64,000 nucleotides of DNA from Candidatus Pelagibacter sp. (GTDB lineage Bacteria > Pseudomonadota > Alphaproteobacteria > Pelagibacterales > Pelagibacteraceae). Below the pieces are notes generated by a model. It did no database searches. It saw only the letters and a program-made list of their open reading frames with translations, and was not told the origin of the DNA. Both the position numbers and the translations under genes were made by a program. Of this stretch, positions 11,861 to 31,041 are shown piece after piece; position 1 is the first letter of the stretch, and every line of letters starts with the position of its first letter. The stretch spans positions 1 through 64,000 of the forward strand of contig JAOINI010000004.1 in the NCBI GenBank assembly GCA_028139285.1, written 5' to 3'.

Positions 11861-12552
11861 ATTTTAAATTTTTTATTCACAAAAACAAGATCCGAGTTAA
11901 CCCAATTTATTAATTTATAATTATTTTTTTTCAAAAGTTTAAACGTATTGCTCTTGAGTATAAAATCTAAATTTTGATTTTGTGTTTCAATTTCTTTATT
12001 CGAAGTATTTAAGATTTCGATTACAATACAATCAATATTATATTTCTTAAATTTAAAATTTTTTAAAGCTTCATATTCATGATTTTCTATATCTATACTT
12101 AGCAAATTCAATTTTGATTTTTTGTAAGGTGAATTCTCTATTATATCGTTTAAAGTTGTTGTTTCTCTTGCAATAATTTTTTTTGGTTTTGCTTTTCTTT
12201 TTTTAACTAACTTAAAATCTACTGTATTAAGAGCTGATCGTTCATGATAAAAATAATATTTAATTTTATTTTTTTTACTACTTATTAAAGCATTTACATT
12301 ATAATCTTTTTTTCTTAAATTTTTAAATTCTTTGATAGATTTTTGATCTGCATCAATATTTATTCCTTCCCAGCCTCTTTTATGAAGTAAATATGTATTA
12401 TTATGTTTTATTGGATGGTTGCATCCTAAATCTATATAAATTCCTTTTTTCATTTTAGAAAACATTCTATCAATAATTAAATCAACGCCACTAATAGAAT
12501 AAGAGATCTTGGTATACTTATTATAATAAATCTTTTTAAGAATATTTTTCAT
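11857..12552 (-). CDS. FkbM family SAM-dependent methyltransferase
   Basis: A 231-residue class I methyltransferase. The SAM-binding motif YIDLGCNHP is at residues 39-47, followed by the FkbM-typical RGWEGINIDAD. The later blocks ALISSKKNK and LLSIDIENHEYEALKNF are diagnostic for FkbM proteins. These enzymes usually methylate sugars or other hydroxyls in surface glycans, which fits the two glycosyltransferase genes alongside. Its ATG overlaps the stop codon of the upstream tyrosine recombinase gene by 4 bp, so recombinase and methyltransferase are probably co-transcribed and translationally coupled. That pairing is unusual. Confidence 0.85.
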   Translation of the reverse strand: MKNILKKIYYNKYTKISYSISGVDLIIDRMFSKMKKGIYIDLGCNHPIKHNNTYLLHKRGWEGINIDADQKSIKEFKNLRKKDYNVNALISSKKNKIKYYFYHERSALNTVDFKLVKKRKAKPKKIIARETTTLNDIIENSPYKKSKLNLLSIDIENHEYEALKNFKFKKYNIDCIVIEILNTSNKEIETQNQNLDFILKSNTFKLLKKNNYKLINWVNSDLVFVNKKFKI

Positions 12553-13463
12553 TTATTTGAAATTTTATTTAATGCATTATTTTTAAACAAATCGGCTTCT
12601 TTAATATATCTTCGCACCATATCTACTGATTTATGTCCAGTCATTGCCATGATGTTTCTTTCGTCAGCTCCATATTCAGCCGTTGTTGTAGCAAAACCAG
12701 ATCTAAGACTGTGACCAGCATATTTTTTTTCATCTAAACCTACACTTAGAGCATGTTTCTTTATTATCAAAGCTACATTCTTATCTGATATGGGAAAAAC
12801 TAAATCATTTTTATTTTCAATCATCCAGTTTCTAAGATGACCGACTGGGCAATATTCTATATATTTGAAAGAGGGGATTGCTTTAGTCATTCCCTCTCCA
12901 GATTGATCAGATTTTGATTTTTTAACAAAGATTTTTACCCCTTCGTTGACAAATTCAACATCATCTCTTGTAATGGCTACAAGCTCTGATCTTCTAAATC
13001 CCCCTGAGAAACCAACTAAAATTAAAGTTTTGTCCCTTAATTTTTTGAATTCACTAACTTTGGAGTCATTTATTGCTTTAATAATTTGTTTTAAATTATT
13101 AAATAATAATGGTTTTTTTGCTTTTTGATGAATTCCTATTTGTCTTTTAATACCTAATAAATTTTCAACGATTATTGGATGTTTCGTATCTAAATAATGA
13201 CCTTTGTATTTATGCATTACGTTTATAGACGCTAAACGTCTTTTTAAAGTACTGTATTTAGATTGTTTCGATAGGTGTGTCATGTATAGAGAGACTATCT
13301 TAGGATCTGTGGGCATGCTTTTCATCCCATGTTTTGAGCAAAATAATGCAAAGTCGTTAAAATCAGATTTATAGGCTCGAATAGTATTTTTAGCTTTAGA
13401 TAGCTTTAAATTGTCTAAAGTTTCAATTTCAAGTTTTTTAATTTCAGTTGTTAGATCTTTCAT
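12549..13463 (-). CDS. Cre-like tyrosine recombinase / site-specific integrase
   Basis: A complete 304-residue tyrosine recombinase. The N-terminal SAM-like core-binding domain spans about 10-110. The catalytic set is intact: Arg157 in GFRRSEL, Lys in KKSKSDQ near 182-184, His251 and Arg254 in AGHSLRSGF, His277 in TGHKS and nucleophile Tyr286 in RRYI. The phrasing GFRRSELVAI, KSDQSGEG and AGHSLRSGFATT fits the Cre-like subgroup better than XerC/D. No other phage gene is present nearby, so this is not an intact prophage. An 11-7-11 inverted repeat begins 1 bp upstream of its ATG. It sits between surface-glycan genes and a DNA-repair gene and overlaps the FkbM gene. Confidence 0.9.
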   Translation of the reverse strand: MKDLTTEIKKLEIETLDNLKLSKAKNTIRAYKSDFNDFALFCSKHGMKSMPTDPKIVSLYMTHLSKQSKYSTLKRRLASINVMHKYKGHYLDTKHPIIVENLLGIKRQIGIHQKAKKPLLFNNLKQIIKAINDSKVSEFKKLRDKTLILVGFSGGFRRSELVAITRDDVEFVNEGVKIFVKKSKSDQSGEGMTKAIPSFKYIEYCPVGHLRNWMIENKNDLVFPISDKNVALIIKKHALSVGLDEKKYAGHSLRSGFATTTAEYGADERNIMAMTGHKSVDMVRRYIKEADLFKNNALNKISNK

Positions 13464-29569: not shown

Positions 29570-30415
29570 ATGAATCTCTATATGTATAACATAAACAGAA
29601 GAAAATTTCTTGGCTTATTTGGATGTGGCTGTTGCTCAATTATACTACCTTCTTGCACCACTGTACCAATTACTGATAGGAAACAATTAAGTATAATTTC
29701 AGAGACAAAGATTAATAGACAAGCAGCACTGGCTTATGAAAAATTTAAACAAAAAACAAAAATTATAACAACAGGTTCAAAATTTAAAGAAATTATAACT
29801 ATTGGAAAAAAGATGGAAAATGCAGTCAGTTCATTTTTTAGTAAACAAAATAAAGAAGATCCTACAACAAATTTTGAATGGGAATATGTTCTAGTAGATA
29901 ACGATAAAATTGTTAATGCATGGTGTATGCCAGGAGGAAAAATTGCAGTTTATACTGGATTGTTGAAAGTAACAAAAAATACAGACGCTTTATCAATAGT
30001 TATGGGTCATGAAATAGCGCATGCAGTTGCTCGTCATTCAATTGAAAGAGCAAGTCAAGCTATGACAGTAAATCTAGGCACAAGTATAGCTGACATCTTT
30101 CTAGGGGGAGCTATAAATAGAACACGAAATACTGTTGGAAGAAATACTGGCTTAGATATTTTTCAAATCGGTATTATGAATCCTTTCGGTAGAAAACAGG
30201 AGTCAGAAGCAGATTATTTAGGATTAATTTTTTCCTCACTTTCTGGTTTTGATATTCGAGAGTCCGTAGAATTGTGGAAGAGAATGTCTCAGAATAAAAA
30301 AGGTAAAGAAGTTCCGGTTTTTTTAAGCACACATCCCAGTAGTACAAAAAGAATAGAGAATTTAAAAGGTTGGATTGATGAAGTTATTATCAAATATCCA
30401 CCAATAAAAACTTAA
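29570..30415 (+). CDS. M48 family zinc metalloprotease, lipoprotein
   Basis: A 281-residue peptidase with zinc motif HEIAH (147-151) and the downstream ligand Glu in ESEADYLG (about 205). The N-terminus reads NRRKFLGLFG then a lipobox-like LPSC, so it combines a twin-arginine-like export motif with a lipidation Cys (about residue 29). Relatives (LoiP/YcaL/BepA type) survey outer-membrane proteins in the periplasm. An internal ATG at 29582 is an equally likely start. The stop lies 4 bp from the tRNA-Lys-derived repeat at 30420. Confidence 0.88.
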   Translation: MNLYMYNINRRKFLGLFGCGCCSIILPSCTTVPITDRKQLSIISETKINRQAALAYEKFKQKTKIITTGSKFKEIITIGKKMENAVSSFFSKQNKEDPTTNFEWEYVLVDNDKIVNAWCMPGGKIAVYTGLLKVTKNTDALSIVMGHEIAHAVARHSIERASQAMTVNLGTSIADIFLGGAINRTRNTVGRNTGLDIFQIGIMNPFGRKQESEADYLGLIFSSLSGFDIRESVELWKRMSQNKKGKEVPVFLSTHPSSTKRIENLKGWIDEVIIKYPPIKT

Positions 30416-30419
30416 TTAT

Positions 30420-30464
30420 TGGTGAGCCCTGATGGACTCGAACCATCGACACCCTCCTTAAAAG
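30420..30464 (-). repeat. Partial tRNA-Lys copy (3' 45 nt), candidate att site
   Basis: Identical over 45 bp to the 3' end of the intact tRNA-Lys, from the encoded CCA through the T arm and variable loop into the anticodon loop. Similarity stops abruptly at 30465. It lacks acceptor 5' strand, D arm and half the anticodon stem, so it is not a functional tRNA. Confidence 0.9.
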
Positions 30465-30496
30465 AACCAATCACAGGTTACTATTAGCTTTATATA

Positions 30497-30871
30497 TTAA
30501 TCAAAAAAAATTAATAAAATAAGCCCAACTATGAGAGTTACTGCAAAAATATAGAATTTACTTTTTGATGATAAATCTTCTTTACTTTCTTTATCAGCAG
30601 ATCCAGTTTCAAAGTATTTACTTTTAAGTATAAATTTAAATATAGCAAGACCAGTAATTATATAAGAGACCATAAAAAATATAAAAGGTAATGGGTTATT
30701 TAAAATTTTTAATGGACCAAAACAATTTTTACATATTCCTGTCTCGAAAGATAAATTATCGTGTAAAACCCAAAAACTTAAATAAGCAAAAAAGACAAAT
30801 AACCCTACCATTATAATTGAGGTAATAGTCCCATTCTTATCTTTTAAATCTATTCTATTATCTTTTTTCAT
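30497..30871 (-). CDS. Small three-helix membrane protein with CxxC, unknown function
   Basis: The ATG at 30871 gives 124 residues; a GTG further up at 30904 would add 11. Three hydrophobic helices lie at about 16-38, 62-84 and 106-124. A loop between the first two carries GICKNCFG, a CxxC pair that could bind metal or form a disulfide. I do not recognise the family. It is the only gene between the two tRNA-Lys repeats and is probably the cargo of the insertion. It could be co-transcribed with tRNA-Lys read-through. Confidence 0.55.
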   Translation of the reverse strand: MKKDNRIDLKDKNGTITSIIMVGLFVFFAYLSFWVLHDNLSFETGICKNCFGPLKILNNPLPFIFFMVSYIITGLAIFKFILKSKYFETGSADKESKEDLSSKSKFYIFAVTLIVGLILLIFFD

Positions 30872-30941
30872 CAATAGTCGTAATTCAGCACAAAAAGTGC
30901 ACACAATAATTTTAGCAAATTAGGGAGGTGTACACCACTTA

Positions 30942-30964
30942 AATAAGCGTTGTATATGCTTATT
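30942..30964 (-). terminator. Hairpin just downstream of tRNA-Lys
   Basis: AATAAGC (30942-30948) and GCTTATT (30958-30964) form a 7-bp stem with a 9-nt loop directly after the tRNA 3' end. There is no long T run, so termination would be weak. It could also be an element-borne repeat next to the attachment site. Confidence 0.4.
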
Positions 30965-30965
30965 G

Positions 30966-31041
30966 TGGTGAGCCCTGATGGACTCGAACCATCGACACCC
31001 TCCTTAAAAGGGAGGTGCTCTACCAACTGAGCTAAGGGCCC
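30966..31041 (-). tRNA. tRNA-Lys (anticodon TTT)
   Basis: A 76-nt cloverleaf on the reverse strand: acceptor GGGCCCT/AGGGCTC with one G-U pair, discriminator A and encoded CCA. The anticodon stem CCTCC/GGAGG region encloses CTTTTAA (TTT), and the D arm is AGCTCAGTTGGTAGAGC. Its 3' 45 nt are duplicated at 30420-30464. Confidence 0.96.

Follow-up and report, generated by a model that had tools for sequence, protein, structure and literature searches.

How does a stretch of DNA that carries no integrase come to be inserted exactly at a transfer RNA (tRNA) gene, and what moves it? The question is raised by a 546-bp unit lying between the tRNA-Lys(TTT) gene and a gene for an M48 protease in a 64,000-nt stretch of Candidatus Pelagibacter sp. 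(contig JAOINI010000004.1, assembly GCA_028139285.1). This whole stretch is termed the window, and coordinates refer to it unless preceded by a locus label; L, G and P numbers are labels for loci, genomes and proteins in this analysis. The unit comprises a 501-bp insert and one 45-bp repeat, and its status as a mobile element, site-specific at tRNA-Lys, is well supported. It is probably a horizontally mobile nano-cassette without an integrase, moved in trans by the integrase of a temperate SAR11 phage.

The 45-nt repeat occurs at 30420-30464 and again, in the same orientation and with 100% identity, at 30966-31010 (spacing 546). It corresponds to nucleotides 32-76 of the tRNA, and identity sets in with the first base of the anticodon loop and runs to the CCA; the outer copy begins exactly at tRNA nt 32, and the sequence before it is unrelated to the tRNA. 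Sixteen 30-mers recur on the same strand of the window, all of them within the repeat, and no 30-mer recurs inverted anywhere in it; since the other 30-mers do not recur, the repeat is not due to chance. The M48 stop ends at 30415, which leaves a gap of 4 bp to the outer repeat. A preliminary description of the locus had reported exact 45-bp repeats around 546 bp, an abrupt end to identity in the anticodon loop, an insert devoid of an integrase and, upon removal of the unit, a tRNA end 4 bp from the M48 stop. All four points hold: the boundary falls at tRNA nt 32, neither the list of open reading frames (ORFs) nor the family searches reveal an integrase family in the insert or its cargo gene, and in the nearest empty relative, L001, the tRNA likewise ends 4 bp from the M48 stop. 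Judged from its sequence, the locus is built as a tyrosine-integrase attachment event would leave it, with the components below (L080 is a second locus at which the element was found).

30966-31041, minus strand: tRNA-Lys(TTT), the integration target, kept whole (ARAGORN; 70.7 bits with Rfam RF00005)
30966-31010, minus strand: attachment core within the tRNA (nt 32-76; repeat analysis)
30420-30464, minus strand: second attachment core, the far end of the element, adjoining M48 (repeat analysis; identical in L080 at 1908-1952)
30465-30965, minus strand: insert of 501 bp, missing in empty relatives and 98.0% identical in L080
30497-30871, minus strand: cargo gene, 124 aa, with predicted membrane helices and a conserved ETGxCxxC loop
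30877-30904, minus strand: 28-bp block, 23 of 28 positions common to the integrase-side arm of phage contig L113
30909-30917, minus strand: TGCTAAAAT, promoter-like (-10 type, by consensus match alone), ahead of the cargo gene
30942-30964, minus strand: hairpin directly after the tRNA, with pairing kept in L080

Evidence that this unit has moved comes from its second host. A profile of the cargo protein family was run on 397 family, 169 genus and 397 order genomes (overlapping samples). It gave one match in the family set (G106), the identical single match in the genus set, and G106 plus one distant relative (G545) in the order set. In G106 (locus L080) the element occupies the same tRNA-Lys/M48 site, with the same length and the same repeats, the second core starting at 1908. 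The two inserts, both of 501 bp, are identical at 491 positions (98.0%) with no gaps, compared with 75.4% identity for tgt DNA, 76.0% for M48 and 79.5% for the spacer between tgt and the tRNA; divergence sets in within a few bases of the tRNA and of the outer core, and the tRNA itself is identical at 76 of 76 positions. An insert so much more alike than the flanking genes (98.0% versus 75-76%) indicates that the 546-bp unit moved horizontally, and vertical inheritance with normal divergence is rejected on the same grounds. When 44 nt of the core were sought with up to two mismatches, 111 of the 397 family genomes matched, of which G106 alone has two copies, and no larger form was found at this core among the 111. 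Of the loci compared, those closest to G106 by tgt or M48 (L093, L095, L089 and L039) lack the element, L039 having a different gene.

Relatives of the window host reveal the same site without its insert. The neighbouring tgt protein was used as a query and returned 79 loci, mostly SAR11 by title. Junctions were counted at loci with tRNA-Lys and an M48 match within 5 kb, after removal of duplicates, of the window's own locus, of loci that end too early (L008, L058 and L060) and of non-SAR11 matches; a junction was termed tight when at most 60 bp separate the tRNA end from the end of the M48 alignment. Tight, empty junctions are found at 77 of 80 distinct other sites, including the four closest by tgt (L001, L002, L003 and L072; 91-94% protein identity), and the neighbour genes of the nearest empty relative are 93% identical to those of the window. 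Three junctions depart from this: L030 with 142 bp, L080 with the element, and L039 with 1,092 bp, a different gene and no repeat. As the element is present in distant hosts and missing from close relatives, at least one of the two hosts acquired it horizontally.

The central claim of the preliminary description, that a minimal element is integrated site-specifically at tRNA-Lys, is therefore supported by the empty sites, by the distant 98% copy and by the phage contigs with the same core that are described below. The empty sites that it proposed to look for in related SAR11 genomes exist, the closest four relatives included, and the contrary pattern that it named, in which all relatives share the 546 bp with normal divergence, is not observed. 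As to other cargo between the same repeats, which it also proposed to look for, repeated cores enclose one kind of cargo only, L039 has its gene without a repeat, and the phage contigs occupy the same core. L039, L030 and L034 were rejected as further cassettes for want of a second core, and L052 and L053 because their extra gene sits between tgt and the tRNA. The gene at L039:9242-10327, between tRNA-Lys and M48 and with no second tRNA core, is presumably sugar-epimerase-like. We take the extra genes on the tgt side of tRNA-Lys to be asparagine-synthase-like in L053 and dioxygenase-like in L052; the M48 gene of L053 is broken into two frames.

A candidate source for the missing enzyme is provided by viral contigs. 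Thirty bases of the tRNA 3' end match three viral contigs (L112, L113 and L114), the last two from IMG/VR. In L114 the M48 C-terminus, at best 72.7% identical to the SAR11 loci compared, is followed by the core and then by integrase, terminase and head-tail adaptor genes. L113 likewise joins an M48 end to the core and a phage integrase gene, and its M48 tail, NWITEVIVKYPPIKRA, resembles that of SAR11 locus L052. The L113 and L114 integrases match a PHROG integrase (E 2.5e-30 and 1.2e-22), their duplicated part starts at tRNA nt 32 in both, as in the mini-element, and their cores differ from that of the window by 1 and 3 bases. We read L113 and L114 as proviruses. L112 has a complete tRNA-Lys(TTT) (L112:6510-6585) adjoining its integrase gene, and hence the attachment core of this phage sits inside a whole tRNA gene; it may represent the attachment site of a free phage. 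A search for more L113-type contigs returned L113 itself only, and a window-core 33-mer and a core 22-mer had no match in viral contigs. The phage records yielded no close isolate: the L114 integrase has no match there; its head-tail adaptor matches 143, all below 60% identity (23-28% among the 20 matches listed), and the 45-nt core matches 69 at up to 95% identity, with no Pelagibacter phage among the 40 of 69 listed.

With no integrase of its own, the element depends on an enzyme from outside, and integration can be envisaged as follows. The element would bring a 45-bp attachment core with short arms, together with a single small membrane-protein gene, and off the chromosome it may exist as a small circle with one core. 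A tyrosine integrase encoded by another element would join this circle to tRNA-Lys at the 3' half of the gene. From then on that half would be supplied by the element and the tRNA gene would remain whole, its old 3' half becoming the second core at the far end. Temperate SAR11 phages of the L113/L114 type, which have the same junction and 45-bp core, would be the likeliest source of the integrase, and the route between cells may be a phage particle, natural transformation or another. Since the core includes part of the anticodon stem, the 3' half that the element brings has to pair with the 5' half of the host; both hosts have an identical tRNA-Lys, other SAR11 genomes have a GGAAGG variant, and the need for the two halves to pair could limit the host range of the element.

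The arms of the element and of L113 are also alike at one point. The stretch from core to integrase in L113, L114 and L112 contains repeated hexamers of the GTGTGC/GCACAC/GTACAC type; L113:100-333 and L114:297-581 carry hexamers of the GTGTGC/GTGTAC type and one promoter-like element, TGCTATAAT, in each. A 28-bp block in the L113 arm, GTGTGCTTCTTTTGTGCAGAATTGCGAC, is identical at 23 of 28 positions to GTGTGCACTTTTTGTGCTGAATTACGAC in the element, just before the ORF. Ungapped, the block scores 30.0 bits, where shuffled sequences average 16.0 and attain 23.8 at most (0 of 150 shuffles reach the observed value), and in the 169 genus genomes it was found in G106 only, within the element. It may be an integrase arm site or an operator, and hints at phage rather than integrative and conjugative element (ICE) ancestry. 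In L080, one compensatory and one G-U change preserve the pairing of the hairpin directly after the tRNA; compared with shuffled sequences, the window copy folds better (z -2.39), but the L080 copy does not (z -0.79).

Several observations weigh against movement by a phage integrase. The 28-bp block was spotted by eye ahead of the test, and relative to the core it is on the side opposite to that of L113; for these reasons it is supportive and not decisive. The remaining five ungapped arm comparisons are at background; with gaps, 1 of 300 shuffles equals the L113 score and nine other comparisons are at background. The bases adjoining the core differ between element and phages, and two arm 20-mers have no exact match in viral contigs. 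Nor do these contigs contain a relative of the cargo protein, as none of 250 stretches that matched a pattern proved related. The L114 integrase is found in 0 of 169 genus genomes, no examined genome has both the element and the candidate helper, and known occurrences in assembled genomes number only two.

Of the other ways in which two distant hosts could come to share the unit, one is DNA uptake followed by homologous recombination across the identical tRNA (76 bp) and outer core (45 bp), with the repeats left by one old site-specific event; it is unlikely. Recombination in SAR11 is high, the tRNA offers 76 of 76 identical positions between the hosts and a helper is not needed, but both exchanges would have to fall in short tracts whose flanks are 75-80% identical right up to them, and an empty recipient has a single copy of the core. 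The unit could instead be a fixed deletion remnant of an L113-type prophage, now immobile, with its two copies derived from one old lineage transfer. This is improbable: the site and the core ends are those of the phages and the 28-bp block is like the L113 arm, yet no phage gene is left, the cargo gene is unmatched in phage records and viral contigs, two copies of equal length with intact 45-bp ends lie in distant hosts, and none of the 111 core-matching genomes has a larger form. We give almost no credence to a decayed tandem copy of tRNA-Lys, or to ancestral DNA since lost from relatives. Nothing was found in favour of either: the outer copy breaks off exactly at tRNA nt 32 and is preceded by unrelated sequence, the sites of relatives are empty, and the insert is far more alike than its flanks. 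The preliminary description had left open whether the unit is a satellite, a deletion remnant or cargo moved in trans; movement in trans fits best, and a plain fixed remnant is disfavoured because it leaves two near-identical copies in two species unexplained.

The preliminary description had also proposed the tyrosine recombinase at 12549-13463 as a possible mover, and that this enzyme, or the orthologue of each host, is responsible now seems more improbable still than a prophage remnant. In its favour, the only PF00589 match in G106, about 29 kb from the element, is an orthologue of the common chromosomal recombinase, which has its counterpart in the window about 17.5 kb from the element. 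No phage-type integrase is therefore resident in G106, a point in favour of movement in trans. PF00589 is, however, present in 120 of 169 genus genomes, mostly one each, and 26 of 30 fetched integrase loci are orthologues of the window recombinase (57-94% identity), yet 77 of 80 sites are empty; an enzyme so widespread contrasts with an element so rare, and the element has no copy of a site known for it. The recombinase is not a private mobile-element gene and adjoins glycosyltransferase-like genes. In its surroundings it is like SAR11_0551, a 'probable phage integrase' listed for SAR11 hypervariable regions (PMC2217521).

How, then, does a cassette moved in trans by a phage integrase compare with known systems? 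Small tRNA-repeat cassettes are already known from other plankton (PMC10872708, PMC7771536, PMC4119200). Methylopumilus flexible genomic island (fGI) fGI-2 lies at tRNA-Lys, with islands of 330 bp to 42 kb and 1-63 genes (PMC10872708); tRNA-repeat cassettes also occur in Ca. Actinomarinales fGI1 (PMC7771536) and Alteromonas (PMC4119200), and transfer between Actinomarinales genera, at about 75% similarity, has been reported (PMC7771536). Like these additive island cassettes, the insert lies between direct repeats of a tRNA gene segment, and it is present in the window and L080 and missing at 77 of 80 junctions. Unlike them, it is a lone 546-bp unit with empty sites, a 98% copy in another SAR11 and phages with the same core, and the accessible text of the three sources names no mover for such small cassettes. 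Cis-mobilizable elements (CIMEs) are decayed parts of ICEs or of integrative and mobilizable elements that move in tandem with a neighbour (PMC5704250, PMC3146451). The unit, too, keeps attL and attR and has no integration or transfer genes, but it is solitary, holds a single gene and lies at a site where no neighbour bears an integrase.

As a site-specific chromosomal element that is apparently phage-dependent, the unit also resembles P4, phage-inducible chromosomal islands (PICIs), capsid-forming PICIs (cfPICIs), PICI-like elements (PLEs), phage-inducible chromosomal minimalist islands (PICMIs) and the marine virion-encapsidated integrative mobilizable elements (VEIMEs) and tycheposons (PMC10803314, PMC11389934). 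Phage satellites are described with their own integrase (PMC10803314), and tycheposons as tRNA-bounded, 4-200 kb long and carrying a tyrosine recombinase (PMC10872708). The unit belongs with neither, since at 546 bp it has no integrase, excision or replication gene of the PICI/PICMI kind and no recombinase. Miniature inverted-repeat transposable elements (MITEs) of insertion sequences are similarly very small, lack a recombinase gene and use an enzyme in trans (PMC11389934); in place of transposon ends the unit has a tyrosine-integrase core in a tRNA, and it holds a protein gene and uses a single site. Mycobacteriophage tRNA-dependent lysogeny shares the tyrosine integrase, an attB in a tRNA gene and a phage-encoded tRNA-Lys-TTT (compare the whole tRNA-Lys of L112); there, attP and attB have about 10 bp in common and the tRNA is not rebuilt (PMC10865867). 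Here 45 bp are common to both sites, and the tRNA is therefore rebuilt.

No paper describing this element was found, as judged by titles and abstract openings in a search from whose coverage subscription papers mostly fell out. Its size, the clean cross-species SAR11 pair and a phage that shares the core are new. Streamlined ocean bacteria, SAR11 among them, reportedly have few recognisable prophages or mobile elements (PMC7771536). Here the transfer of one gene from one SAR11 species to another can be seen in a clean and minimal form: there are two copies, the ends are known, other sites are empty and a phage enzyme is a candidate. This raises the testable question of whether DNA with little beyond an attachment core can be moved by a temperate phage integrase. 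If it can, phage integrases may often carry the small tRNA inserts of plankton as passengers.

The cargo itself belongs to an uncharacterised family known from short metagenome contigs. Among the ORFs of the element it alone has homologues; 25 database entries, some of them fragments, match its profile at E ≤ 0.01, all on contigs of up to 5,989 bp. The protein has a conserved ETGxCxxC...GPLK stretch between predicted helices, its structure model is of moderate confidence (mean pLDDT 69.6), and four residues differ between the window and L080. No Pfam match lies above cut-off (one to STE3, below it, is taken as chance), PADLOC, NCBIfam and phage records give no match, and PHROGs one marginal match to phrog_38303 (E 0.0018), of unknown function in that database. 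Its function might lie in the membrane, perhaps in defence against phages, but this is guesswork. More broadly, and still doubtfully, SAR11 and other plankton might harbour a class of nano-satellites of about half a kilobase with no integrase, each with one ETGxCxxC...GPLK membrane gene and arms tuned to one temperate phage integrase, spreading with that phage between species and perhaps protecting the host, at its membrane, from the helper or from competitors of the helper.

Three further observations concern this family. The distant homologue in G545 (L111:1459-1701; also L147) is shorter, comes from the same order and does not adjoin a tRNA repeat; it was rejected as another tRNA cassette, as its 19.9-kb surroundings hold no duplicated tRNA 3' end. 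P0024, a metagenome short-chain-dehydrogenase ORF, starts with the ETGICKNCFGPLKLLNNP motif of the cargo family and is either a recombination joint or an assembly chimera. P0012 and P0019 share a peptide (MTSLR..VKLGL) that lies in frame ahead of the usual start, which implies that their upstream DNA is conserved; this DNA may be the arm of a different helper.
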